From positions 744,001 to 808,000 of the forward strand of contig NZ_CP010311.1 of NCBI RefSeq assembly GCF_000827125.1: 64,000 bases of DNA, given 5' to 3'. The notes under the pieces were generated by a model, which was not told the DNA's origin, made no database searches, and saw only the letters and a program-made list of their open reading frames with translations. This DNA is from Geoalkalibacter subterraneus. Lineage in GTDB: Bacteria; Desulfobacterota; Desulfuromonadia; Desulfuromonadales; Geoalkalibacteraceae. This document shows positions 10,031 to 61,057 of the stretch, one piece after another (within the stretch, counting starts at the first letter, position 1; every line of letters begins with the position of its first letter). Position numbers and translations under genes: made by a program.

Positions 10031-11413
10031 TCAAAAAAGGTTGGTCAGCCAGGCAAACAGACCTGTTTCTCTGATCTTGAAGAACAACACGATAGCCACC
10101 GCGACGGGGGAGACGTAGCGGATCAGAAAATGCCATAACGGGTAGACCCAGCCTGCGCCACCGGCGATCAACTCCTGCTTCTCCTCGGTACCGCTCCAGA
10201 ACCATCCTACGTAAATGGCTGTCAGCAAACCGCTGATGGGCAACAGGTAGTTGGATGTCAGCAGGTCGGCGGAATCAAAGAAGGTCAGATCACCGATGAG
10301 CGTCCACTCGGACAGGGAATTGAAGGAGAGGGCGGTGGGCAGGCCGACCACAAAGGCCAATCCTGCCAGGAATGTGGTGGCGCGCTTGCGCCCCCATCCC
10401 CGTTCATCAATCAGGTAGGAGACCTGCGCCTCCAGCAGAGAAATGGCGCTGGTCAGAGCGGCAAACGCCAGAAGCAGAAAAAACAGGATGGCCAGAAACG
10501 CACCGCCGGTAATTTGGGAAAAGACGACGGGGATGGTTTTGAAAATAAGCCCGGGTCCGGCCGCCGGCTCCATGCCGACGGAGAAAACGATGGGGAAGAT
10601 GGCCAACCCCGCCATCAGCGCAATCACGGTGTCAAGGAGGACGATGCGCAGGCTTGATCCGAGCAGGTCTTCGTTGCGGTTGAGGTAAGAACCGTAGGTG
10701 ATCATGGCCGCCATGCCCAGCGAGAGGGTGAAAAAAGCATGACCCATCGCTTCAAGCACCGCACCGGGGGTGAGTTTGTGAAAATCGGGGCGGAACATGA
10801 AGTTGATCCCTTCCCATGCCCCATTGCTCAGCATGCCGTTGACGAACAGCAGCGCAAGCAGCGCCAGCAGAACAGGCATCAGGATCTTGGCCCAGCGCTC
10901 GATCCCCCGCTGCACACCGCCGATGACGATCCCCAGGCAGAGGGTAATGAAGAGCAGGTGCCACAGAATCTGGCGGGGGCCGTCGGCAATCAGCCCGTCG
11001 AACATCCCTTCGATCTGCGCGGCGGGCAGACCGCTGAAACTGCTGGTCAGGGCGCGATAGACATAATCAAGGGTCCAGCCCGCGACCACCGAATAATAGG
11101 AAAGGATGATGAATGCCGCCGTGATGCTGGTCCATCCGGCGACCACCCAGAACGAGCGGCGATGCTCCAGGGCGATGAAAGCACCTACCGCGTCGCGGCG
11201 CGTGTGACGGCCGATCATGAACTCGGCCATCATGATCGGCAGGCCGACCAGTGCGATGCACACGAGGTAAACCAGCACGAACGCGCCGCCGCCGTTTTCA
11301 CCGGCGATGTAAGGAAATTTCCAGATATTGCCCAAGCCCACCGCGCTGCCCGCCGCGGCCAGGATAAAGCCGAGGCGGCTGGCCCAGAGGGCGCGGCCCG
11401 TGGAATTGTTCAT
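10031..11413 (-). CDS. Sodium-dependent transporter, NSS/SNF family
   Basis: A 460-residue secondary transporter of the neurotransmitter:sodium symporter family (LeuT fold), with about 11-12 transmembrane helices. Helix 1 holds the family signature GFILAAAGSAVGLGNIWKFP (residues 15-34), including the unwound sodium and substrate site GSAVGLGN. Bacterial members mostly import amino acids with sodium; the substrate here cannot be told. It lies eight bases upstream of gph and 14 bases downstream of yggS on the same strand, consistent with one transcript. Confidence 0.9.
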   Translation of the reverse strand: MNNSTGRALWASRLGFILAAAGSAVGLGNIWKFPYIAGENGGGAFVLVYLVCIALVGLPIMMAEFMIGRHTRRDAVGAFIALEHRRSFWVVAGWTSITAAFIILSYYSVVAGWTLDYVYRALTSSFSGLPAAQIEGMFDGLIADGPRQILWHLLFITLCLGIVIGGVQRGIERWAKILMPVLLALLALLFVNGMLSNGAWEGINFMFRPDFHKLTPGAVLEAMGHAFFTLSLGMAAMITYGSYLNRNEDLLGSSLRIVLLDTVIALMAGLAIFPIVFSVGMEPAAGPGLIFKTIPVVFSQITGGAFLAILFFLLLAFAALTSAISLLEAQVSYLIDERGWGRKRATTFLAGLAFVVGLPTALSFNSLSEWTLIGDLTFFDSADLLTSNYLLPISGLLTAIYVGWFWSGTEEKQELIAGGAGWVYPLWHFLIRYVSPVAVAIVLFFKIRETGLFAWLTNLF

Positions 11414-11427
11414 AGGTCAAATCCCGT

Positions 11428-12129
11428 TCAGGGTGTTTCGCGGGCGCCGAAGATGGCGGTTCCGACCCGCACCAGGGTCGCGCCTTCCGCAATGGCGGCA
11501 GGGAAATCATGGCTCATGCCCATGGATAATTCATCCATGCCGACCCCGGGAAGATCGAGCCCCGCGATCTCTTCGGAGAGTTCTCGCAATTGGCGGAAAT
11601 AGGGGCGGACGGCCTGGGGATCTTCGAAAAAAGGAGGCAGGGTCATCAGTCCCCTTACGCGCAGGTGCGGCAATTCGGACAGCTTGCGGACCAGTGCCGG
11701 AGCTTCCTGGGGGGCAACCCCCGATTTGCTTTGTTCTCCGGCCAGGTTGACCTGAACCAGAACCTCGAGGCGCTCATCGATGCGCTCCCATTGACGATTG
11801 ATCTCCCGTGCCAGCGAGAGACGGTCGACGCTGTGGATCATGCGGACGCGGCCGCGCAGATATTTGGCCTTGTTGCTCTGCAGGTGCCCGATGAAATGCC
11901 ACTCGACGGGGGCTTCGACCTGCTCGGCTTTGTCCGTGAATTCCTGGACGTAGCTTTCGCCGAACAGCTTCTGTCCCGCGGCAAAGGCCGCCAGAACGTC
12001 CGCGGCCGGCTTGGTTTTCGAGACGGCCACCAGGCGCACGCCATGCGGGTCTCGACCACAGTCATGACAGGCCTGGTCGATGCGCTCCCTGATCATGCGC
12101 AGATTTTCCTGAATATCCTGAATGCTCAT
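11428..12129 (-). CDS. yggS: YggS/PLPBP family pyridoxal-phosphate homeostasis protein
   Basis: A 233-residue single-domain TIM-barrel PLP-binding protein. The PLP lysine is in VRLVAVSKTKPA (about residue 36), followed by GESYVQEF and WHFIGHLQSNKAK, both characteristic. No catalytic reaction is established for the family; it buffers PLP and affects amino-acid and keto-acid balance. The ATG overlaps the maf stop (ATGA), so the two genes are translationally coupled. Confidence 0.95.
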   Translation of the reverse strand: MSIQDIQENLRMIRERIDQACHDCGRDPHGVRLVAVSKTKPAADVLAAFAAGQKLFGESYVQEFTDKAEQVEAPVEWHFIGHLQSNKAKYLRGRVRMIHSVDRLSLAREINRQWERIDERLEVLVQVNLAGEQSKSGVAPQEAPALVRKLSELPHLRVRGLMTLPPFFEDPQAVRPYFRQLRELSEEIAGLDLPGVGMDELSMGMSHDFPAAIAEGATLVRVGTAIFGARETP

Positions 12130-12791
12130 GGCGACAAATCCGATACCTGGTTTTCTCGGGCGGAGTGCTGCGGCGGCAGGGTGATGGCGCCGAGGTTCAG
12201 AAGAACATCGACGACCTCGGCCAGGGGAAGGCCGACCACATTGGTGTAGCTGCCCGAAATATCGCTGACCATATAGGAGGCCAGCCCTTGAATGGCGTAG
12301 GCTCCCGCTTTGTCGAGGGGTTCACCGCTGGCAATGTACCCCGCGATCTCCGCGCCTGTCAACTGCCGCAAACGCACCTGCGTGCAGACCGAACCGGTGG
12401 TGCTTTGATCCTTTTTCCGGTCGTGGATTGCATAGCCGGAATAAACCTGATGCTCGCGTCCCGAGAGCATTCTGAGCATCTCGCCTGCCTGACGGGTATC
12501 GCAGGGTTTGCCGAGCAGATGACCGTCCTGCACGACGATGGTGTCGCTGCCGAGAAACCAGCGTCCTTTGACGTCGGCGCGGTTTGCGACCTCCTGCGCC
12601 TTTTCGCGGCTGAGACGCATGACATGCTCGGCCGGTTCTTCATCCTCAAGCGGACCCTCATCCACGCAACTGGGGATGATCTGCAATTGAATTCCGAGGC
12701 TTTCCAGCAGTTCACGGCGGCGGGGAGACGCCGATGCCAGCACAAGTCCCTCCTCGGAGGTGTAAAACATCGGGGAAGATACGGATTTCAT
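12126..12791 (-). CDS. maf: Maf family nucleoside triphosphate pyrophosphatase
   Basis: A 221-residue Maf/HAM1-fold protein that hydrolyses non-canonical or canonical NTPs to NMPs. The signature is LVLASASPRRRELLESLG near the N-terminus, then GSDTIVVQDG and KAGAYAIQGLAS. The open frame continues upstream into the cyclase gene; ATG 12791 is preferred as the one giving a normal N-terminus, though its GAAGG ribosome site is about 15 bases away. An internal ATG at 12770 is a possible alternative. Confidence 0.9.
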   Translation of the reverse strand: MKSVSSPMFYTSEEGLVLASASPRRRELLESLGIQLQIIPSCVDEGPLEDEEPAEHVMRLSREKAQEVANRADVKGRWFLGSDTIVVQDGHLLGKPCDTRQAGEMLRMLSGREHQVYSGYAIHDRKKDQSTTGSVCTQVRLRQLTGAEIAGYIASGEPLDKAGAYAIQGLASYMVSDISGSYTNVVGLPLAEVVDVLLNLGAITLPPQHSARENQVSDLSP

Positions 12792-50495: not shown

Positions 50496-51173
50496 TCAAG
50501 ATGTCTTTTCGCTCCAGTGAAGGGCGTTTGATGGGCAACTTGCAATGCATTCAGGGCATTTCAGGCAGTCGCGATCGGTCAGTGCGCCGGTTTCTTTATG
50601 CTCGGCGATGGACAGGCTCATCGGACAGGCAGCCTCGCAGCGACCACATTCGCGGCAGTTGTGACTCACTTGCAGCCTGTCTTTGTGGCCGCCGATCAGG
50701 TTCTGCATGGTGCCCATCGGGCAGATGGCACACCATGCGCGCGGATGCAGGGTGAACGCCAGGCCGACGCCAACTGCAGTCGTTACGGCACACATGGTCC
50801 AGAACACCAGCCCCCAGTGTTGAGGATCGCTGGGGTTGAGGGCGATACGCCATCCCATAAAGCCCATCATGGCACTCAGAACCCCCAACCGAAAAGGCAT
50901 GCCGCGCATAAAATCGGGGATAACGCCGCGCCGGGTCAGCGGTGCGATCAGTCGATCGAAGAACGCGCCGCGCGGGCAGAGGTTGCCGCACACATAGCGT
51001 CCCTTGTAAAAAGCTCCCACTATCCCGGTCAGCATGGCTCCGGCTACGGTAAACCCGAGCAGCGGATACTTCCAACCCAGCGCCAGAGTCACGAGCATAA
51101 TGGGCATCAACGCCCACTGCAGTTTGCGGCGGTTGGATACCGCCTGATATTTTTCCTGAGCAACAGCTTGCAT
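50496..51173 (-). CDS. NapH/CcoG-like membrane polyferredoxin
   Basis: A 225-residue membrane iron-sulfur protein with about four helices. Two membrane-adjacent cysteine pairs (CGNLCPRG at 62-69 and CAICPMG at 148-154) resemble NapH/CcoG/RdxA proteins. Two full [4Fe-4S] motifs near the C-terminus (CRECGRCEAACP 173-184 and CLKCPECIASCP 203-214) suggest electron transfer at the inner face of the membrane. The donor and acceptor are unknown. The partner genes of classical NapGH are absent. It has its own terminator. Confidence 0.85.
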   Translation of the reverse strand: MQAVAQEKYQAVSNRRKLQWALMPIMLVTLALGWKYPLLGFTVAGAMLTGIVGAFYKGRYVCGNLCPRGAFFDRLIAPLTRRGVIPDFMRGMPFRLGVLSAMMGFMGWRIALNPSDPQHWGLVFWTMCAVTTAVGVGLAFTLHPRAWCAICPMGTMQNLIGGHKDRLQVSHNCRECGRCEAACPMSLSIAEHKETGALTDRDCLKCPECIASCPSNALHWSEKTS

Positions 51174-51414: not shown

Positions 51415-51687
51415 TTACTTGATGTGGCAGTCGCCGCACTTGGTGGGGCCGCCCTGAGCTTTGTGGCAGTTCTTGCAGGCGTCGCCATGAGCGGAGTCTT
51501 TGTCGATTTCGATTTTAGCAGGGGTGCCTTCGCCGTGGCATTCCTCGCATGAGACTTCTTCGCTGTGCATTTTGTGATCGAAGGGAACTGCGCCGTTTTT
51601 GGCTTCATAGCTGTACATGTCTTGGGCAGCGAAACCGACTCCGACGGCAAACAGAACAACCATGGCAGCTACAACAAACTTCTTCAT
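51415..51687 (-). CDS. ppcA: Periplasmic triheme cytochrome c7, PpcA type
   Basis: A 90-residue precursor. The signal peptide (residues 1-20, ending GFAAQ) is followed by a mature domain with three CxxCH motifs (CEECH, CKNCH, CGDCH) and the PpcA-like start YEAKNGAVPFDHKMH. PpcA-family proteins shuttle electrons from inner-membrane quinol oxidoreductases to outer-membrane conduits. The ATG has AGGAGG upstream, and an excellent promoter precedes it, so it is a one-gene strongly expressed unit. A genome may hold several paralogues, so the symbol is by family. Confidence 0.93.
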   Translation of the reverse strand: MKKFVVAAMVVLFAVGVGFAAQDMYSYEAKNGAVPFDHKMHSEEVSCEECHGEGTPAKIEIDKDSAHGDACKNCHKAQGGPTKCGDCHIK

Positions 51688-52398: not shown

Positions 52399-53286
52399 TT
52401 ATGCCTTGTCGCCCTGCTGATTATCCTCCCGTTCGCGGATCTCTGCGCTCAGTGCTTCAAGCTGCTTCTGCAGGCGGTCCAGGTCCTGATGGTTCTTGTG
52501 GCGTTCACGGGCCATGTGCCGGAAGGTCTTGGCAAGGTTTTCAAGCTCCTCGGTGCCTTCGGGAACACTGATGTCAAACTTTCCTTTACTCAGTTGCTCG
52601 GCAAAGACCACCAGTTGCTTGACCGGCATCAGGACATTGCGGCGCAGCAGCGCGCTGACTCCACCGACAGTCAGTACCATAACCATCAGGCAGAAGACAA
52701 TAAGACGATTGCGCAGGGTGTTGAGAGATGCGTTGAGCGGTTCCCGCGACAGGCCGATGTCAAGGGTGCCGAGGATTTTGTCTTCCGGAGTGTGCACATG
52801 GCAGCTTCCCGTGAAGCAGCTCGGCTCATTGTAGATCGGTGCGGTGATGGCAAGAACTTCTTTGCCCTGACTATTCTCGAAGTGGCGGGCCTTGTCCATC
52901 TCCCCCAGGTGGGTGGCGGGTTCAGAGCCTTCGTGGCATTCGATGCACCCGGCCGTCTCCTTGTCGACGATCTGGTTGACCTCATCAGGGTGGGCGGAGA
53001 ACATAATGAGGCCCTTTTTGTTGAAAATGCGCACATGTTCAACACCTTCCTGCTCGCCGATATTCTGAATGGTATGGCGCAGCGATTCGCGGTCGTCTTT
53101 CAGCATGGTATAGCGCGTAGATTTAACGATAATATCCGCCAGTTGAATCTCGCGCCGGATGGTATCGTTTTCCATATCCTGTCTGACGAAGGAATACAGC
53201 AGAATACTGCAGACAATGACAAAGCCGGTGACCGTCAACCCGACGGGGACCAGTGCTTTGGCCGCGATGTTTTTCAGGATGCTCAC
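52399..53286 (-). CDS. Kinase-less c-heme sensor protein with HAMP domain
   Basis: A 295-residue membrane sensor. Helix 1 is about 10-33, a periplasmic domain about 40-185 and helix 2 about 190-212, then HAMP and a coiled-coil tail rich in Lys, Glu and Gln. The periplasmic domain has a heme-c motif CIECH (114-118) and a CX4CH motif (157-163, CFTGSCH). There is no histidine-kinase, GGDEF or chemoreceptor output module. The same sensor domain occurs in the histidine kinase at 56349-57926. It follows the cytochrome b gene by 97 bases. Heme redox or ligand sensing is inferred from c-heme PAS-like domains known in Geobacter chemoreceptors. Confidence 0.85.
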   Translation of the reverse strand: MSILKNIAAKALVPVGLTVTGFVIVCSILLYSFVRQDMENDTIRREIQLADIIVKSTRYTMLKDDRESLRHTIQNIGEQEGVEHVRIFNKKGLIMFSAHPDEVNQIVDKETAGCIECHEGSEPATHLGEMDKARHFENSQGKEVLAITAPIYNEPSCFTGSCHVHTPEDKILGTLDIGLSREPLNASLNTLRNRLIVFCLMVMVLTVGGVSALLRRNVLMPVKQLVVFAEQLSKGKFDISVPEGTEELENLAKTFRHMARERHKNHQDLDRLQKQLEALSAEIREREDNQQGDKA

Positions 53287-53383: not shown

Positions 53384-54073
53384 TCACTCGGAATGTTTTT
53401 CCCCGTGTTCATGCTCCTCAATTTCCTCCCATCCGGTCCACATCGGTTTGAAATGAGCAAATGGGGTATGGCCAAGGGTTGCAAGGTAGACATGTGTGAA
53501 CAGAAAAGCGATCAGACAGCACGCCAGCAGGAAATGGGCGCCGACAACCATCTTTATCCCCCCGAGCAGCATGACGACGGGGCGTAGCAGCTCCAGGTTC
53601 AGCAGAAGCAGCCCCGTCACAATGACCAGCGGCACGAGAACCATCATGATGACCACGTAGGCGGATTTCTGCAGCGGGTTGAATTTGTTCTCCGGCGACA
53701 TGACGTGTGGATTGGGTTTGCCCCTGAAATAGTTGAAAAAATAGAACAGGGCCTGTTTGAAAAGCCCGTGTTTGAGATCGTCGCGATTGGGAAAGTAGAG
53801 GGGCAGCAGCGAACGGGCGATAATCAGGTAGTATCCCAGCCAGAGGCAGAAGGAGATGGACACCACGATCCCCGCTGTGTTGTGCAGTTCGATGGCGGCA
53901 CGATAGCTGCCGAAAATATTCAGATACTCAGGAAAGCGAATCTGGGCGCCGCTCAAAATCAGTGCGACGAATCCGAATGCGTTGAGCCAGTGCCAGATGC
54001 GTACCGGTGTCGGCGTCAGGTAAATCCTCTGTCCTGTCTTCACAATTTTCCTCCTCGTAATGGCTGCCGTCAT
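53384..54073 (-). CDS. Di-heme cytochrome b membrane subunit
   Basis: A 229-residue integral membrane cytochrome b of the cytochrome b561/hydrogenase-formate dehydrogenase gamma type. Likely axial histidines lie in TPVRIWHWLNAF, AIELHNTAG and VVGAHFLLACCLIAFLFTHVY, enough for two hemes b. It probably oxidises menaquinol and passes electrons to a c-type partner, comparable to the CbcB class of Geobacter; the match is by architecture only. The ATG is three bases after the stop of the small membrane-protein gene, so both are co-transcribed from the -24/-12 promoter. Confidence 0.85.
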   Translation of the reverse strand: MTAAITRRKIVKTGQRIYLTPTPVRIWHWLNAFGFVALILSGAQIRFPEYLNIFGSYRAAIELHNTAGIVVSISFCLWLGYYLIIARSLLPLYFPNRDDLKHGLFKQALFYFFNYFRGKPNPHVMSPENKFNPLQKSAYVVIMMVLVPLVIVTGLLLLNLELLRPVVMLLGGIKMVVGAHFLLACCLIAFLFTHVYLATLGHTPFAHFKPMWTGWEEIEEHEHGEKHSE

Positions 54074-54076
54074 TCA

Positions 54077-54313
54077 CTACGCAGGATCTGGTCCCAGGCA
54101 ACGAATTGCAGCCGCGACAAAAAACGCCAGCAGAACAAGTGGCGGAATCAACTGCATAATCGACAGCGTTAACACAAAGCTATAACATATTTTACCGAGC
54201 ATATCGCTGCTGTCCGATAAAATACCGATAGCGCCCTGTGCTGTCGGGGGTGCCGAAAAGAGCACAAAAACCGCCACCACCACCGCCAGCGTGGTCGACC
54301 TGTGAATGTGCAT
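54077..54313 (-). CDS. 78-residue small membrane protein, first gene of the cytochrome b operon
   Basis: Begins MHIHRSTTLAVVVAVFVLF, a signal-peptide-like helix ending at PPTAQGA, then a second long hydrophobic segment (SFVLTLSIMQLIPPLVLLAFFVAAAI). AGGAGAC precedes the ATG at 54313; the longer frame upstream covers the promoter and is rejected. It has no heme motif. The three-base gap to the cytochrome b gene and the promoter just upstream make it a real gene, perhaps an accessory subunit or assembly factor of the cytochrome. Confidence 0.65.
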   Translation of the reverse strand: MHIHRSTTLAVVVAVFVLFSAPPTAQGAIGILSDSSDMLGKICYSFVLTLSIMQLIPPLVLLAFFVAAAIRCLGPDPA

Positions 54314-54370
54314 GACGATCCGTCTCCTGTAGAGGTGAAATTCGCACCAACTTTGCAGGGACCTAACAAG

Positions 54371-54386
54371 AGCATCTGCTATGCCA
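54371..54386 (-). promoter_or_regulatory. Sigma-54 (-24/-12) promoter of the cytochrome b operon
   Basis: Minus-strand TGGCATAGCAGATGCT: TGGCA at -24 and TGCT at -12, with the required ten bases between GG and GC. The predicted start is about 47 bases before the ATG at 54313. The neighbouring divergent gene encodes a sigma-54 activator. Confidence 0.75.
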
Positions 54387-54496
54387 AACCTCGGCGCAGC
54401 AGCTCGATAATTGTTAAGTTGTTGAATAGTAAAAGAAAAAAGTTGAATTTGGAGATTGGAGGCTGTGGTGTGGACCTGCTTGGTGTATAATAAAAA

Positions 54497-54518
54497 TGTG
54501 CACCTGTTTTGTCGCACA
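54497..54518. promoter_or_regulatory. Candidate upstream activator site
   Basis: Dyad TGTGC-N12-GCACA, centred about 120 bases upstream of the -24 element. This is the usual distance for binding of a sigma-54 activator. The rest of the 54314-54838 gap is AT-rich and holds no gene that I can support. Confidence 0.35.
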
Positions 54519-54652
54519 CACTGGGTGCCATCGAACGCAAACGCCCTGAAAGCGGCAGAAGCCTTTTCTCCCGCTGCTGTGTGACGGGATGTATTAAAAA
54601 AATATACAGTTTTGAATAAATATTTATTTTGTGCGGGAGAGGATAAATCCCG

Positions 54653-54681
54653 TTGGGCGAAAGGGAAGTTTCTGTTATTAT
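54653..54681 (+). promoter_or_regulatory. Candidate sigma-70 promoter of the response regulator gene
   Basis: TTGGGC (54653-54658), 17-base spacer, TATTAT (54676-54681), about 150 bases before the regulator ATG. Confidence 0.4.
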
Positions 54682-54838
54682 TTGTCCTATGTAGTATGTG
54701 GTTTAAACGGTTTCAGCCCCGTTTTCTTTGATGTTTTGTGCCGCCTCTCTATATGACGCGGCTCGCCGTTTTGAAGACCTTTGTCCGGGGGAGCCGGCGC
54801 CGCACCTGAAAAGGCAGGGCGCCGAAGGAGTGATCTGC

Positions 54839-56257
54839 ATGAACGAACAAGCACGCATTCTGGTCGTGGATGACGAAGGGGTGATACGCGAAGGTATCCG
54901 CCGCATCCTCGAAAATAGTGGTTATGAAGTCGATGTAACCTCCAGCGGGAATCTGGCCATCGAAAAACTTCAGGAAGAAGATTTCGATGTCGTCATCACC
55001 GACCTTAAAATGCCCGGCATGAGCGGTATGGAAGTGCTCAAGGCCATCCGCATACTCCAACCGGATGTGCCGGTGATCATCATTACCGGATATTCCACGG
55101 TCGATACGGCGGTGGAGGCCATGAAAAACGGCGCCTTTGACTACCAGTCAAAACCCTTTACCCCCGATCAGATCGTCGGCAAGGTAGAAAAGGCCCTGGA
55201 GCAGCGCGCTGTCCTGCTGGAAAATTTCTACCTGAAGAAAGAACTGCGCGACCGACATGGTTTTGACGATTTTGTCGGTGACAGCAAGGCGATGCAGAAA
55301 GTCTACCGGCGCATCATTCAGGTGGCGCCGACCGACAGCACGGTTCTGATTACCGGCGAAAGCGGCACCGGCAAGGAGCTGGTTGCCCGGGCTGTTCATC
55401 GGAACAGCCCCCGCAAGGATCAGCCTTTTGTGGCTGTCGACTGCACCTCTCTGGCTGAAAGCCTTCTGGAAAGTGAGCTGTTCGGTCACGTCAAGGGTTC
55501 TTTTACCGGTGCGATGCAGACCAAAACCGGCCTTTTCAAGGTCGCTGACGGGGGAACCCTGTTTCTGGACGAAGTCAGCAATATCAGCCTGACCACCCAG
55601 GCCAAACTGCTGCGCGTTCTGCAGGAACGTGAGGTCGTGCCCATCGGCGGTACCAAGCCCGAACCCATTGATATCCGGCTCATCGCCGCAACCAACCGCG
55701 GGCTCAAGGAGCTGGTCGCCGAAGGTAAGTTCCGTGAAGACCTCTTCTTCCGCCTCAATATCATTCCGATTGACATGCCCCCGCTGCGCGATCGCCAGGG
55801 CGATCTGCCGACCCTGGTCGGTTATTTTCTGCAGAAGTTCGCCAGCGAGATGGGCAAGGAGATCCGCGGGCTGAGTCCGGGGGCGATGGCTTTGCTGGAA
55901 CGCTACTCCTTCCCGGGCAATGTGCGTGAACTCGAAAACATCATCGAGCGCGCTGTCGTGCTGGCGGCCGGGGATCTGATTGAAGACGATGATCTTGAAC
56001 TGCAGCTCTCTGCCGCCGAGGAACAGGAAATGGGGGAAGGGTATGTGCCTCTGACCGCAGATGAGCTGAAGGAAGCCAAGCGTCACCTGCGTGAACAGGC
56101 CGTCGCTCCCGTGGAACGTGCATTTGTGCTCAACGCGCTGAAGCGTAATGAGTGGAATGTGACCAAGGCCGCAGAAGAAGTGGGAATGCTGCGCCCCAAC
56201 TTTCAGGCGATGCTCAAGAAACAGGGGATTTCAGTGCGTGAGCATATGACGAACTGA
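54839..56257 (+). CDS. NtrC-family sigma-54-dependent response regulator
   Basis: A 472-residue activator. The receiver domain (1-125) has acidic pocket VDDE and phospho-acceptor Asp55 in VVITDLKMPG. The AAA+ domain (about 140-380) has Walker A GESGTGKE (about 174) and the sigma-54 contact loop GSFTGA (about 220; the usual form is GAFTGA). A Fis-type helix-turn-helix is at the C-terminus (NEWNVTKAAEEVGMLRPNFQAML). ATG 54839 with AAGGAG is chosen; a longer frame lacks a receiver-like start. It is divergent from a -24/-12 promoter and followed by a c-heme histidine kinase. A sigma-54 regulator (BccR) beside a cytochrome bc operon is known in Geobacter sulfurreducens; orthology is unproved. Confidence 0.93.
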   Translation: MNEQARILVVDDEGVIREGIRRILENSGYEVDVTSSGNLAIEKLQEEDFDVVITDLKMPGMSGMEVLKAIRILQPDVPVIIITGYSTVDTAVEAMKNGAFDYQSKPFTPDQIVGKVEKALEQRAVLLENFYLKKELRDRHGFDDFVGDSKAMQKVYRRIIQVAPTDSTVLITGESGTGKELVARAVHRNSPRKDQPFVAVDCTSLAESLLESELFGHVKGSFTGAMQTKTGLFKVADGGTLFLDEVSNISLTTQAKLLRVLQEREVVPIGGTKPEPIDIRLIAATNRGLKELVAEGKFREDLFFRLNIIPIDMPPLRDRQGDLPTLVGYFLQKFASEMGKEIRGLSPGAMALLERYSFPGNVRELENIIERAVVLAAGDLIEDDDLELQLSAAEEQEMGEGYVPLTADELKEAKRHLREQAVAPVERAFVLNALKRNEWNVTKAAEEVGMLRPNFQAMLKKQGISVREHMTN

Positions 56258-56348: not shown

Positions 56349-57926
56349 CTATTCTTCCCCCTCTCCCGACGGTTCCTGGGAGGACAGGGGAAGGGTGATG
56401 GTAAACGTGGTCCCTTCGCCAGGGGTGCTTTGGACTTCGATATCGCCGCCATGATTTTCAATGATACCGTAGGAAACCGACAAGCCGAGCCCTGTCCCCT
56501 TATGCCCCTTGGTCGTAAAGAAGGGGTCGAAGATTTTGTCAAGGTTTTCCGGCGGAATGCCGCTGCCTGTATCGCTGATTCGAACGACAATCTTGTTGGA
56601 TCGGGCATCTATCCCTGTTTCAATGGAGAGTTTCCCGTCGTTTCCCATGGCCTGGCTGGCATTGATCAGCAGGTTCATGAAAACCTGCTCGATCTGATTG
56701 GGGTCCGCCTCGATCTGCGGGATTTCACCATAGGTCTTTTCAATGCCGATGTCGTGGAAAGAGCTGTGGTGTTCCACCAGCGAGAGGGTCTGTTCCATGA
56801 TGTCGTTGATGGAGGTAGGCACTTTTTTCGGCACACTTTCGCGTGCGAAGTCGAGCAGCCCTTTAACGATTTCAGCGCAGCGCTGCGTCTCGCGGATAAT
56901 GGTGTCGAAATCGGGTTTCAGGGCCGGGTCGAGCCTCGGGTCGCTGCTGATCATCGAGGAAAACATCAGCACGCCGGTCAGGGGGTTGTTGAGTTCGTGG
57001 GCGATGCCGGCCACCAGTTCTCCCAGGGAGGCGACTTTCTCCGACCGGATGAGGCGCGACTGCATCTCCTTGATTTCATGGGTGCGCTCCTCCACTTTCA
57101 CCTCAAGTTGATTGCCCCATTGGGCCAATTCCTCCTGGGCCTGCCGCAGGCTGCGCGTCATTTCGTTGAAGGAGCGGGCCAGTTCACCGAATTCGTCCTT
57201 GCTCTCCACCTGGACTTCCCCCCATTCCCCACGGGCGATGCGATGGGTCTGCTCCAGCATCTGGTTAAGCGGCTGGCTGATGAATCTCTGGGTGAGCAGC
57301 GACATGCAGGTTCCCAGAATCAGCAGCAGAATCAGGCTCAATGCGATGATGTTGTTGCGGTAAGTAGCAGTTTGCAGGCGCATCCCCTCAAGGGAGACGA
57401 TCACGTCGAGTACGCCCAGCAGTTTGGCGTCGGGGGGGTGGAAGTGGCATTCTGCGGTGGAGCAGCTTTCCTGGTTGTAGATCGCCTTGGCCATCCCCAG
57501 CACTTCATGGCCGTGCTTGTCGTCGAACAGGCGACTGCGATTCATTGATGATGCGTGGGTCAGGGGCGTATCTTTGGTGTGGCAGACGTTGCACCCTTCT
57601 GTAGCTTTATCCAGAAACTGCCCGATCTCGGCGCGTTCGGTCGAAAAGATGATCTCCCCATCCTTGTTGATCAGGCGGATGTGTTCGATGCCCCGCTGCG
57701 TGCCGACCTCCTGAATCATCTGATAAACCCGCTTGCGGTCATCTTCAAGCATTTGGTAGTGGGTCGAGCGAATCAGGGTTTCGCTCAGATTGTCGACGTC
57801 GTTGATGGCCTCTTCCAGAAAGATTTTCTTCAGGGCGCCGACATTGATGATGGCAAACAGAAGCATGGTGCCCACCAGGACAAAAACCGTGACCAGGGTG
57901 ACCTTGGTGGTGATAGACAGCTTCAC
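56349..57926 (-). CDS. Histidine kinase with periplasmic c-heme sensor domain
   Basis: A 525-residue sensor kinase. It has a membrane helix at about 7-29, a periplasmic domain at 35-188 with heme motif CNVCH (112-116) and CX4CH motif (155-161, CSTAECH), a second helix at 192-212, then HAMP and a coiled coil. The kinase core has phospho-acceptor His310 in GIAHELNNPLTGV, N-box NLLINASQAM, and glycine boxes DTGSGIPP and GTGLGLSVSYG. GTG 57926 is the start, supported by AAAGGAG. It is convergent with the response regulator gene, so the two form an evident pair. The sensor domain is a paralogue of that at 52399-53286. Confidence 0.92.
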   Translation of the reverse strand: MKLSITTKVTLVTVFVLVGTMLLFAIINVGALKKIFLEEAINDVDNLSETLIRSTHYQMLEDDRKRVYQMIQEVGTQRGIEHIRLINKDGEIIFSTERAEIGQFLDKATEGCNVCHTKDTPLTHASSMNRSRLFDDKHGHEVLGMAKAIYNQESCSTAECHFHPPDAKLLGVLDVIVSLEGMRLQTATYRNNIIALSLILLLILGTCMSLLTQRFISQPLNQMLEQTHRIARGEWGEVQVESKDEFGELARSFNEMTRSLRQAQEELAQWGNQLEVKVEERTHEIKEMQSRLIRSEKVASLGELVAGIAHELNNPLTGVLMFSSMISSDPRLDPALKPDFDTIIRETQRCAEIVKGLLDFARESVPKKVPTSINDIMEQTLSLVEHHSSFHDIGIEKTYGEIPQIEADPNQIEQVFMNLLINASQAMGNDGKLSIETGIDARSNKIVVRISDTGSGIPPENLDKIFDPFFTTKGHKGTGLGLSVSYGIIENHGGDIEVQSTPGEGTTFTITLPLSSQEPSGEGEE

Positions 57927-58068
57927 GACAGTGCGCTCCTTTGGGTTGAATGCTGGTTTCGATGTGTCATTAATGTGCCATTGAATGTATTTCGGACTGG
58001 AACTGAAGTCAAACCTGTTTTTGCGGGCCATTGAGACTTTGGTGGACGCCCGCATCAGGTTTCTTCGG

Positions 58069-58197: not shown

Positions 58198-58884
58198 ATG
58201 CAGAAGATGATTGTATCTCTGGCCGTACTGATCTTTGTCGGATTTTCGGCCGTTGCTTCGGCTCAAGATGAAACCCTGACCCAGGAACAGAAAGGCGCCT
58301 ATGCCCTGGGGCAGCAGCTCGGAGGCGACCTCAAGGCCGGCGGGGTTGAAGTCGACATCGACATGCTGGCGGCAGGCATCAAGGATGCCTACGCCGGGAC
58401 TTCACTCCTGGATGATGCCGAAATTGCCTCGGCCATGGAGACCCTGCAGCGTGAAATGATGGAAAAGCAGATGGCTCAGCGTGAGAAGGCTGCTGAGGAG
58501 AACCTGCGCGAAGGGCAGGCGTTCCTCAGTGAAAATGCCCAGAAGGACGGCGTTAAAACGACCGAGAGCGGACTGCAGTATGAAGTGATTGAGAAAGGCA
58601 GCGGAAAGATTCCGACGCCCGAGAGCACAGTGACCGTTCACTACCGGGGCACATTGATCGATGGGACGGAATTCGACAGCTCTCTGCGGCGCGGTGAGCC
58701 TGCGACTTTCCCTGTCAACGGCGTCATCGCCGGCTGGACCGAAGCGCTGCAGCTGATGAGCGAGGGAGCCAAGTATAAACTCTACATTCCGGCCGATCTT
58801 GCTTATGGCGAACGTGGCGCCGGTCAGGCCATCGGCCCCAATGAAACCCTCATTTTCGATGTAGAACTCCTGTCGGTAGAGTAG
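58198..58884 (+). CDS. Exported FKBP-type peptidyl-prolyl isomerase
   Basis: A 228-residue periplasmic protein of the FkpA/FklB/Mip type. The signal peptide is residues 1-22 (ending ASAQ). The N-terminal dimerisation region is helical (YALGQQLGGDLKAGG, and a long EMMEKQMAQREKAAEENLREG helix). The C-terminal FKBP domain (about 115-228) has VTVHYRGTLIDGTEFDSS, IAGWTEALQLM and IPADLAYGERGAG. It probably folds periplasmic proteins, possibly including the neighbouring multiheme cytochromes. A terminator follows it. Confidence 0.92.
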   Translation: MQKMIVSLAVLIFVGFSAVASAQDETLTQEQKGAYALGQQLGGDLKAGGVEVDIDMLAAGIKDAYAGTSLLDDAEIASAMETLQREMMEKQMAQREKAAEENLREGQAFLSENAQKDGVKTTESGLQYEVIEKGSGKIPTPESTVTVHYRGTLIDGTEFDSSLRRGEPATFPVNGVIAGWTEALQLMSEGAKYKLYIPADLAYGERGAGQAIGPNETLIFDVELLSVE

Positions 58885-58892
58885 TGTTTTGC

Positions 58893-58932
58893 AAAGGCGG
58901 CGCCGAGGACATTTCTTCCCGGCGCCGCCTTT
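58893..58932 (+). terminator. Intrinsic terminator after the FKBP gene
   Basis: AAAGGCGGCGCCG and its complement, 14-base loop; the T tail is short. Confidence 0.7.
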
Positions 58933-59010
58933 GTTCTGCCGATCTGCCCGATTTCAGCAGGGCAAACTTGTATGCAGTATGCAGCGTACAGTTGACTTTC
59001 CCGTCGGCCT

Positions 59011-59026
59011 GGGATAATTTTTTGCC
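59011..59026 (+). promoter_or_regulatory. Possible second -24/-12 promoter, upstream of the dodecaheme genes
   Basis: GG (59012-59013), ten bases, GC (59024-59025), with TTGC at -12 but a poor -24 arm (GGGATA). The 341-base gap between the FKBP gene and the first cytochrome gene holds only this and the terminator. The leader would be about 190 bases. Confidence 0.25.
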
Positions 59027-59225
59027 TGAATTGTGCCTGCAGTAACCATTTTCCGATGGGTTCTTTCCGGGGAGGCCGGAATGGATCCATTTGAGTTCAT
59101 TTTTTTTCGTGGCGGAATCGGTTCTTCTGTAACGAGGAAGAGAGCAAACCGGATCCGGGGGCGCAGATGGCGCCTTGTTTCACGAAATTCATGTCAACGG
59201 TGTTGGGAGACAGGAGGAAATGTAG

Positions 59226-60038
59226 ATGAGGAGTTTATTTAGCAAGGGACGTTATGCAGCCGCGGCGTTGCTGCTGGGAATGGTGATGCTGGTCGCCGGC
59301 CCGGTCTCGGCCCAGGATGCGGAACTGATGAATTCGGACTGCGTAAAGTGCCATCAGGCGGTGCCGCAGCAGGTCGAAGAGAAGGGGATGGCGCATAAGA
59401 CCGCCGTTTCCTGTCTTGATTGCCATGTCGGGCATCCGCCGGAGGTCGCCGACAATATCCCTGCCTGCGCCATGTGCCATGCCGGAACACCCCATTATGA
59501 CGAACCCGAGGATTGCGCCAAGTGCCACGCCAATCCCCATACGCCGCTTGAATTGACCCTTGAAGGGGAGCTTAAAGCGGAATGTCTGACCTGCCATGAC
59601 CCGATCGGGCAGCAGCTTACGGCCAACCCCAGCGCGCACACCGAAGTGTCCTGTAATTTCTGTCATGCCGACACCCATGGCTACATTCCCGAATGCATGG
59701 TCTGTCATGAGACCCATTCCGAGGAGATCGCGGCGCAGGATTGCTCGGCCTGCCACCAGGCTCACATGCCCCTCGAAGTGGCCTATGACGACCAGCTGCC
59801 TTCGGTCTTCTGCGCCGCCTGCCACGATACGGCTTACAGCGAGTTGAGCGCGACACCGACCAAGCACCAGACGCTGGCCTGTGTTTACTGCCATCAGGAT
59901 GAGCATAAAATGGTCCCGCTGTGTTCCGATTGTCACGGCGTGCCGCACGCACCGGGAATTCATGAAAAGTTCCCGTCCTGCGGCGAATGTCACAATACCG
60001 CGCATGATCTGAACAACTGGCCCGGCCAAGCCGAATAA
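59226..60038 (+). CDS. Dodecaheme c-type cytochrome
   Basis: A 270-residue exported cytochrome with 12 CxxCH motifs (first CVKCH, last CGECH), about one heme per 20 residues. The signal peptide is residues 1-29 (ending VSAQD). Extra histidines in CHxxH and HxH patterns offer axial ligands for bis-His hemes. Twelve hemes recall OmcQ-type cytochromes of Geobacter, but no family is assigned with certainty. The start has AGGAGG upstream. It is 11 bases upstream of a second 12-heme gene, and the C-terminal halves of both proteins align well, pointing to a tandem duplication. Confidence 0.9.
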   Translation: MRSLFSKGRYAAAALLLGMVMLVAGPVSAQDAELMNSDCVKCHQAVPQQVEEKGMAHKTAVSCLDCHVGHPPEVADNIPACAMCHAGTPHYDEPEDCAKCHANPHTPLELTLEGELKAECLTCHDPIGQQLTANPSAHTEVSCNFCHADTHGYIPECMVCHETHSEEIAAQDCSACHQAHMPLEVAYDDQLPSVFCAACHDTAYSELSATPTKHQTLACVYCHQDEHKMVPLCSDCHGVPHAPGIHEKFPSCGECHNTAHDLNNWPGQAE

Positions 60039-60049
60039 GGGAGGGACCC

Positions 60050-61057
60050 ATGCCTGTTGTCAAAAGGTTTGCTCTGCAAACACTATTGGTTGTCCTGGCG
60101 TTGGTGGGCTTTATGGCGGTTGCCGCCTGTGCCCGTCCTGACGTCGATGACGGTCGTGTCGAAAGTGAAACACCTCCTGCTGCAACCGAAGTGAAGCAGG
60201 AAGCAGTGGAGATGGCGTCCGAGCCGGAAGCGGCTGATAGCGCCGTTCAGGTCGCCCAGGCGGAAACAACAGCTGAGCCTGCTCCCACCGCCAACAAAAA
60301 AGACCCGGCCAACCCCTATGATGTCGACATCCCGCCCATGAGCCTGGAGCAGTGCGGGCAGTGCCATCCGACCTATTTTGAGAGCCTGCGGACTGAAGGT
60401 GGTCGCCATCAGTTCGACTGCCGTGAGTGCCATGAGGTTTTTCACGCCTATAATCCGCAGAAGCAGAACTGGGCGGAAATCATGCCTAACTGTGCCGATT
60501 GCCATGGTCAGCCTCATGGAAGCGTACATGTGCAGTGCCTCAGTTGCCATGTTGACCCCCACGCACCCCTTTCCATGCCCTATGCTGAAGGGGCACCAGT
60601 GACCAAGGCATGTGCGGATTGCCACACGGGACCGGCCAGAGAGGTCGCCGAGTTCCCCAGCCGCCATATGGATGTCGCGTGCACAAGCTGTCATCATGAC
60701 CAGCATGGCTATGTGCCGTCCTGCTTCGAGTGTCACGGGCCCCACTACGAGGGACAGGCTCTTGAGTCCTGTACTGAGTGCCATCCGGTGCACAAGCCGT
60801 TGGAAATTGCTTTGACTCCGACCACCGGCGCCCGTACCTGCCAGGCCTGCCACGATACGGTTTACACCGAGTGGAAAGAAACGCCCAGCAAGCACGGCCA
60901 GGTCAATTGCTCTCTGTGCCACACAGAGCACGGCATGATCCCCGACTGCAGGACCTGTCACGTTCAGCCCCACAGTGACAACATGCTGAGCAAGTTCCCG
61001 GATTGCCTCACCTGTCATATCAATCCGCATGATCTGCCGGTCAAGCGGAAAAACTGA
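60050..61057 (+). CDS. Dodecaheme c-type cytochrome lipoprotein
   Basis: A 335-residue exported protein with a lipobox (VAAC, Cys27), hence probably a lipoprotein. A 70-residue Glu/Ala/Pro-rich spacer is followed by 12 CxxCH motifs (first CGQCH, last CLTCH). Its C-terminal part shares the pattern CHDTxYxE, P-KH, C-CH-EH, KFPxCxxCHxxxHDL with the preceding cytochrome. GGGAGG precedes the ATG. The lipid anchor and long linker suggest a tether from a membrane across the periplasm, while the paralogue lacking an anchor may be soluble. A strong terminator closes the operon. Confidence 0.9.
   Translation: MPVVKRFALQTLLVVLALVGFMAVAACARPDVDDGRVESETPPAATEVKQEAVEMASEPEAADSAVQVAQAETTAEPAPTANKKDPANPYDVDIPPMSLEQCGQCHPTYFESLRTEGGRHQFDCRECHEVFHAYNPQKQNWAEIMPNCADCHGQPHGSVHVQCLSCHVDPHAPLSMPYAEGAPVTKACADCHTGPAREVAEFPSRHMDVACTSCHHDQHGYVPSCFECHGPHYEGQALESCTECHPVHKPLEIALTPTTGARTCQACHDTVYTEWKETPSKHGQVNCSLCHTEHGMIPDCRTCHVQPHSDNMLSKFPDCLTCHINPHDLPVKRKN

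Follow-up and report, generated by a model that had tools for sequence, protein, structure and literature searches.

A predicted haem-sensing sigma-54 regulon for Cbc5-type menaquinol oxidoreductases in Geoalkalibacter subterraneus

Promoters of the NtrC/AtoC type carry paired upstream activator sites, a site for IHF and a -24/-12 element. In Geobacter sulfurreducens, BccR is said, in 2021 work by Joshi, Chan and Bond, to be an RpoN-dependent regulator of cbcBA. CbcBA is discussed in the accessible text of PMC12307469, which refers to Joshi, Chan and Bond 2021. The Cbc5 menaquinol:ferricytochrome c oxidoreductase comprises, according to excerpts of PMC7726332 and PMC7894505, CbcA with 7 haems, the cytochrome b CbcB and CbcC with 12 haems. 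CbcD appears in the same excerpts of PMC7894505 as a HAMP protein with two haem sites. For the RpoN regulon of G. sulfurreducens, the accessible text of Leang et al. 2009 (PMC2725144) links RpoN to cytochromes and to formate dehydrogenase and describes no activator site; 'GSU059' is absent from its main text. A literature search, run mostly outside subscription papers and on partial texts, found no published operator, geometry, wider regulon or small-protein family of the kind described below.

We analysed a stretch of 64,000 nucleotides of the 3.72 Mb genome of Geoalkalibacter subterraneus (contig NZ_CP010311.1, positions 744,001 to 808,000), hereafter the window. Its genes of interest are the following.

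54839-56257, plus strand: sigma-54 activator of 472 residues, with a receiver domain, an AAA+ domain with a GSFTGA loop and a Fis-type HTH (domain matches)
56349-58055, minus strand: sensor histidine kinase with HAMP and a periplasmic part carrying CNVCH and CSTAECH (domain and motif matches)
54077-54313, minus strand: small membrane protein of 78 residues, first gene of the operon (ORF; phmmer 5e-8 to its counterpart in ortholog locus L054)
53384-54073, minus strand: cytochrome b (PF01292), CbcB-like (domain match)
52399-53286, minus strand: membrane sensor-like protein with CIECH and CFTGSCH, CbcD-like (motifs, and the CbcD description in excerpts of PMC7894505)
51824-52351, minus strand: protein of 175 residues, whose gene adjoins the CbcD-like gene in 29 of the 37 loci defined below
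51415-51687, minus strand: small c7-like multihaem cytochrome (PF14522, below its cut-off)
50496-51173, minus strand: NapH-like membrane 4Fe-4S protein (NapH models, below their cut-offs)

The original prediction took the divergent gene for a sigma-54 activator, and its complete set of receiver, AAA+ and Fis-type HTH domains bears this out. The GAFTGA loop is a feature of bacterial enhancer-binding proteins. GSFTGA is a one-letter variant of it, and the protein has the domains and the loop of the NtrC class. The same GSFTGA is found in the activator translations of 36 of the 37 loci; for the last one, L050, which lies at a contig edge, the translation is empty. The best NCBIfam match of the activator is AtoC, below the cut-off of that model.

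The window activator is probably the ortholog of G. sulfurreducens BccR. As with BccR and cbcBA, a sigma-54 response regulator is located beside a cytochrome b/c menaquinol oxidoreductase operon, and the regulon predicted here includes a pair made of a heptahaem cytochrome c and a PF01292 cytochrome b. In contrast, the window operon contains no CbcA and starts with a small membrane protein. The resemblance to Cbc5 lies in the CbcB-like cytochrome b, which adjoins a CbcD-like two-haem membrane protein, and in multihaem matches found near CbcB-like or CbcD-like genes in some ortholog loci (among them L067, L069 and L084). However, both the heptahaem CbcA and the dodecahaem CbcC are absent from the window operon, which adds the c7-like cytochrome and the NapH-like protein. 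The enhancer-dependent promoter architecture is of a known kind. It follows the NtrC/AtoC type in its whole arrangement and in the domain order of the activator, but differs in its operator (TGTAT-N9-ATACA), in a pairing of sites at roughly 92 or 104 bp and in its targets.

The kinase gene is convergent with the activator gene and encodes two haem-type motifs; its product is the probable partner kinase of the activator. The CbcD-like protein contains a single CxxCH and a single CxxxxCH. A HAMP domain is suggested by a weak match to NarQ at residues 213-270 (E 0.0011), with no Pfam HAMP match. Over about 230-260 residues this protein shares 34-35% identity with the kinase, and both have a CxxCH and a CxxxxCH. 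They look as if they were of common origin, a sensed and a sensing protein. Beyond the kinase, region 58198-61057 contains genes for two multihaem cytochromes and, judged by eye, for an FKBP-like protein. Among the loci compared, the order of these genes is kept only in the nearest family (L055, L057, L058 and L059).

The control elements are located in the gap between the activator gene and the operon.

54371-54387, minus strand: -24/-12 sigma-54 promoter TTGGCATAGCAGATGCT (pattern, matrix score and counterparts in ortholog loci)
54415-54427, minus strand: IHF-like site ATTCAACAACTTA, with one mismatch to WATCARNNNNTTR (consensus match)
54484-54502, no strand: UAS1, putative promoter-proximal activator site TGTATAATAAAAATGTGCA, with 2 mismatches (conserved-motif search)
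54590-54608, no strand: UAS2, putative distal activator site TGTATTAAAAAAATATACA, perfect (conserved-motif search)
54497-54518, no strand: TGTGC-N12-GCACA dyad, present but not conserved, its left arm overlapping the right half of UAS1

From the motifs, their conservation and fixed spacing, their co-occurrence with the regulator and the gene content, we propose the following mechanism, which we regard as very probable. The kinase would sense the redox state, probably via a periplasmic c-type haem, and would phosphorylate the divergently encoded activator. Activator dimers would bind two TGTAT-N9-ATACA repeats about 133 and 239 bp upstream of the predicted transcript start, probably on the same DNA face. 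IHF would bend the DNA between these sites and the promoter, and the ATPase of the activator would open the sigma-54 RNA polymerase complex at TTGGCATAGCAGATGCT. The small membrane protein and the Cbc5-type (CbcB-, CbcD-like) menaquinol oxidoreductase operon would be switched on, and the same activator would drive other operons elsewhere in the genome. An exact operator would then be available for the probable regulator of a Cbc5-type inner-membrane cytochrome complex, one gate for electrons leaving Geobacter-like cells at low potential. Starting from one promoter, a predicted regulon can be recognised in the sequences of dozens of genomes. This also exposes tiny membrane proteins of a widespread family, which nearly always accompanies the activator, and the same arrangement marks wider electron-transfer genes and undescribed tiny membrane proteins in related metal-reducing bacteria.

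The -24/-12 element had been picked out as a promoter just before the operon. Its minus-strand sequence TGGCATAGCAGATGCT (54371-54386) is the only exact match to TGGCAYN6TGCW in the 64 kb. With up to one mismatch there are 17 matches, not above the 19.4 expected by chance, so the promoter letters alone are unremarkable. Scored with a hand-written sigma-54 weight matrix, on which the values depend, the 17-mer TTGGCATAGCAGATGCT reaches 15.0, the highest of 69 matches scoring at least 8 in the window. The GG-N10-GC spacing and the TGGCA and TGC cores are all present. Between the 17-mer and the ATG (54313) of the 78-residue protein there are 57 bases, with AGGAG upstream of this ATG. The usual -12 spacing predicts a transcript start near 54360. 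The genome contains one rpoN match.

Conservation was examined in orthologs of the activator, taken as proteins of 63-85% identity; among the matches listed, paralogs have 53% or less. All 36 ortholog loci and the window make up the 37 loci. A same-strand -24/-12 counterpart is found in the matching gap of 26 of them, window counted. These counterparts, hand-picked from the matrix listing, score 9.7-17.6 and lie at -332 to -785 relative to the activator start, on the strand pointing away from the activator. Conservation at orthologous loci had been suggested as a check of the original prediction, which thus passes it for the promoter. Together with the exact match and the top matrix score, these data support a real sigma-54 promoter driving the small-membrane-protein/cytochrome b operon, and they agree with the proposal that the divergent activator is the likely direct regulator of this operon.

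The 11 loci without a divergent promoter are L041-L045, L047-L050, L055 and L059. In L041, L043, L044, L045 and L048, which are co-directional, a dyad-promoter pair is located downstream of the activator and ahead of the operon. In L055 and L059 the neighbouring operon is absent; in the same genomes (G004 and G005) a second activator copy adjoins the operon (L056 and L054, respectively). L050 stops at a contig edge. No dyad-promoter pair is found in L042 and L047, and L049 has a weak pair only. The promoter directly precedes the cytochrome b gene in L057 and L058, which are the two nearest relatives.

The 26 gaps, 11,053 bases in all, were selected by their promoter and not by a dyad. They contain 35 TGTAT-N9-ATACA sites with at most one mismatch, distributed over 23 gaps, as compared with a mean of 0.37 and a maximum of 3 sites in 60 dinucleotide shuffles. 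At the other half-site spacings, N4 to N14, 0-9 sites are found. The N5 and N7 spacings, with 7 and 9 sites at no more than one mismatch, were considered and set aside: they exceed the shuffles (about 0.3) but fall far under the 35 sites of N9, and some of them may be alternative registers of AT-rich sites. Two copies with at most two mismatches are present in 17 of the 26 gaps, at 73-109 and 166-216 bp from the 17-mer, typically at about 95 and 200 bp. In the window, UAS1 and UAS2 lie 96 and 202 bp from the 17-mer, 106 bp apart, and the former distance falls in the commonest 5-bp bin of the relatives' sites. No site at up to one mismatch is present in the gaps of L051, L054 and L056. That of L051 has one site with 2 mismatches. 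Those of L054 and L056 contain a perfect TGTAT-N8-ATACA (five loci inspected for N8), and N9 pairs of the ordinary kind precede the cytochrome b gene in both loci. The second activator copy of L054 (G005) and L056 (G004) is 66-68% identical to that of the window. The N8 site beside it may reflect operator divergence after duplication.

In the pooled loci, 73 promoters scoring at least 11 have a dyad with up to one mismatch 50-321 bp upstream. We call canonical the 64 of these whose dyad lies within 65-115 or 155-215 bp; they were picked by the presence of a dyad and are therefore no test of the dyad itself. At 43 promoters a second site is found, for which up to 2 mismatches were allowed. The distance between the two sites is 91-93 bp in 10 cases and 101-107 bp in 31, that is in 41 of 43 pairs, with single cases at 82 and 112 and none at 94-100. 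When all site combinations are counted (49 pairs), a few lie at 71, 72, 111 and 113 and again none at 94-100. The clusters are about 11 bp apart, compatible with any period of about 10 to 12, and suggest that UAS1 and UAS2 are placed on one helix face. Phasing of all 100 site-to-promoter distances was also tried, gave results inconsistent across periods and was set aside.

The IHF-like site of the window is located between UAS1 and the promoter. The consensus WATCARNNNNTTR and the role of IHF at RpoN promoters are taken from the accessible text of PMC7962754. Matches to WATCARNNNNTTR with at most one mismatch occur 8-63 bp upstream of the 17-mer in 39 of the 64 canonical promoters (shuffles: mean 10.7, maximum 19). 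For a wider stretch upstream of the 17-mer, the comparison is 39 versus 11.9 in shuffles. In the canonical promoters, the majority base is A at -41 to -39, and TTA is the majority at -30 to -28 (52-67%). The genome has five genes of the HU/IHF family, IHF and HU counted together. The consensus is enriched between enhancer and promoter, and the window copy is a predicted IHF site.

A separate named collection provided a replication set of 16 orthologous loci at 66-82% identity. One of them, L076, duplicates L059, leaving 15 non-duplicate named loci. Nine of the 15 (L077, L079-L085 and L091), which are Geobacter and Geomonas isolates and three MAGs, contain a promoter with a dyad at up to one mismatch. 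The other six (L078 and L086-L090) lack a clear pair; in L086 two sites with 2 mismatches each are present, and in L090 a dyad with 1 mismatch lies 97 bp from a weak promoter.

The sigma-54 activator domain has 31 strong and five weak matches in the genome. The strong ones speak for an alternative in which the promoter and the TGTAT-N9-ATACA operators are real but serve a different protein, either a second activator or a co-repressor, and the gene of the neighbouring activator is only linked to them. The genome distribution argues against it. We searched 136 genomes of the order, 85 of which contain the activator at E <= 1e-150, for an exact composite, that is an exact dyad at the proximal or distal distance followed by GGYAYN6TGC. 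Exact composites are found in 57 genomes, and they track the activator gene: 55 of 85 genomes with it and 2 of 51 without it (Fisher p 1.6e-13, a value inflated by kinship, since related species are not independent). The two exceptions, G002 and G135, are 81% and 79% complete; conversely, an exact composite is absent from 30 of the 85 genomes with the activator. A reversed-pattern control composite gives no match in any of the 136 genomes. In addition, the dyad-promoter pair lies beside the activator in divergent as well as in co-directional layouts, and no such pair, but 15 dyads, is found in 907 kb of sequence from 64 loci of activator paralogs (41-51% identity). We therefore regard reading by another protein as unlikely, and control by the neighbouring activator as the preferred explanation.

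A second alternative concerns the operator. The original prediction placed the enhancer at the TGTGC-N12-GCACA dyad of 54497-54518. This dyad is indeed present, as the only exact copy in the window. At up to one mismatch the window contains 5 copies, for 2.8 expected, and 5 are reached by 18 of 100 shuffles. Conservation, however, is not observed: at this threshold the dyad occurs in one of the 26 orthologous gaps, the window's own, though the C-terminal DNA-binding regions of the orthologs appear much alike. At up to 2 mismatches it occurs 3 times, in 3 of the 26 gaps, versus 3.1 in shuffles. On conservation we thus reject it as the enhancer, and binding of the activator to it is highly improbable. 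Its TGTGC left arm overlies the right half of UAS1, which explains how it attracted attention. The activator most likely binds the conserved TGTAT-N9-ATACA pair instead.

It is equally improbable that an ordinary sigma-70 promoter drives the operon, the -24/-12 match having arisen by chance: the relaxed -24/-12 pattern is common by chance and one weak sigma-70-like site exists (minus strand, 54515-54487, 9/12), but this site, which overlaps UAS1, is close to what chance gives (0.4 on average in shuffles, sd 0.7), and the counterparts in the 26 loci argue for sigma-54.

The first genes behind most of the dyad promoters encode proteins of about 75 residues that begin like a signal peptide and have a single hydrophobic segment, with the consensus FLGFxALIIxAQLxPxLxxxGxVKG. 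A family model was built from 17 sequences, with seeds from behind own and remote promoters. It gives 134 matches, a few of them doubled by overlapping loci, in 60 of 93 regulator or regulon loci, and none in the 64 paralog loci or in the window itself. Three family members checked against Pfam have no significant match, and two checked against NCBIfam have none. A family gene ends within 500 bases of the promoter for 44 of 61 canonical promoters with at least 500 bases of downstream sequence. In regulator-adjacent loci, the source of no seeds, the ratio is 30 of 43. At E <= 1e-8 the family is present in 88 of the 136 genomes, namely in 83 of the 85 with the activator and in 5 of the 51 without. 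The following family members are unannotated.

L171, 5118-5776, plus strand: family members
L172, 9654-11078, coordinates of the reverse complement: family members
L215 and L216, 1485-1713 in each, reverse complement: family members

Seven family genes were detected in the G. subterraneus genome, five of them behind two remote promoters. The remaining two were found by protein similarity alone, and they too are preceded by a -24/-12 element, with dyads at 200/96 and 198/94 bp that have 2-3 mismatches. This outcome had been predicted and might have turned out otherwise. The promoter and dyad arrangement precedes the operons of all seven genes. The 78-residue protein of the window is at best a possible, divergent member; its L054 counterpart matches the family model at 7e-4. 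A broader reading, in which the haem-sensing sigma-54 two-component switch is order-wide and its core output consists of these signal-peptide, single-helix proteins of about 75 residues, acting as Cbc5-type small subunits, assembly factors or electron-coupling parts made at low redox potential, is tentative, and we put it at somewhat below even.

In the G. subterraneus genome, the dyad alone is too weak as a search pattern, with 28 sites at up to one mismatch versus 22 for a reversed control. As the dyad alone is hardly enriched, only its combination with a promoter is informative. We inspected 27 of the 28 sites (all but C1:2983172), including the two of the window and those of L161, L165 and L166. 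Canonical distances to a promoter were found for the window, for C1:2899441/2899545 (dyads spaced by 104, promoter at C1:2899661), for C1:3075544, which has a 2-mismatch partner at 3075438, and for C1:1955435. The last of these is a single dyad 95 bp from a promoter scoring 15.1, before an alpha/beta-hydrolase-like gene named by eye, and is a possible regulon target. Three further sites with -24/-12 scores of at least 12, C1:810 (283 bp), C1:1867349 (137 bp) and L161 (152 bp), are off-spacing and were not counted as targets.

The promoter at C1:3075327 precedes genes for small membrane proteins, a receiver protein, a heptahaem cytochrome c and a cytochrome b. A remote operon of this genome encodes a 7-CxxCH protein, and the cytochrome b of the heptahaem operon is 76% identical to that of the window. 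We read the window and C1:3075327 operons as Cbc5-type because they match the descriptions of CbcA, CbcB and CbcD. The remote composites of relatives mostly precede small-protein genes, some of them with a heptahaem cytochrome and a cytochrome b. The switch is thus predicted to be regulon-wide and not limited to the adjacent operon, and a haem-sensing sigma-54 regulon for Cbc5-type menaquinol oxidoreductases is our best reading of these loci.

As in the RpoN regulon of G. sulfurreducens, formate dehydrogenase is represented: a gene so named by eye stands behind a composite in three relatives (G001, G003 and G004). In these close relatives (L191, L192 and L196) it directly follows the dyad-promoter composite, and its catalytic subunit is split into two ORFs, as an in-frame selenocysteine stop would give. 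In L191 (G003:C1:1331087-1331423), one dyad seems common to two divergent -24/-12 promoters. A receiver-only protein is encoded next to the small membrane proteins in L172 (8585-9079, where the Pfam receiver match was checked), with similar genes in L194, L199, L203 and L205; a feedback on the kinase is possible. Also in L172, transposase-like genes, named by eye, are located at 10172-12604. With respect to the heptahaem operon they lie upstream of its distal activator site, at a distance of about 600 bases.
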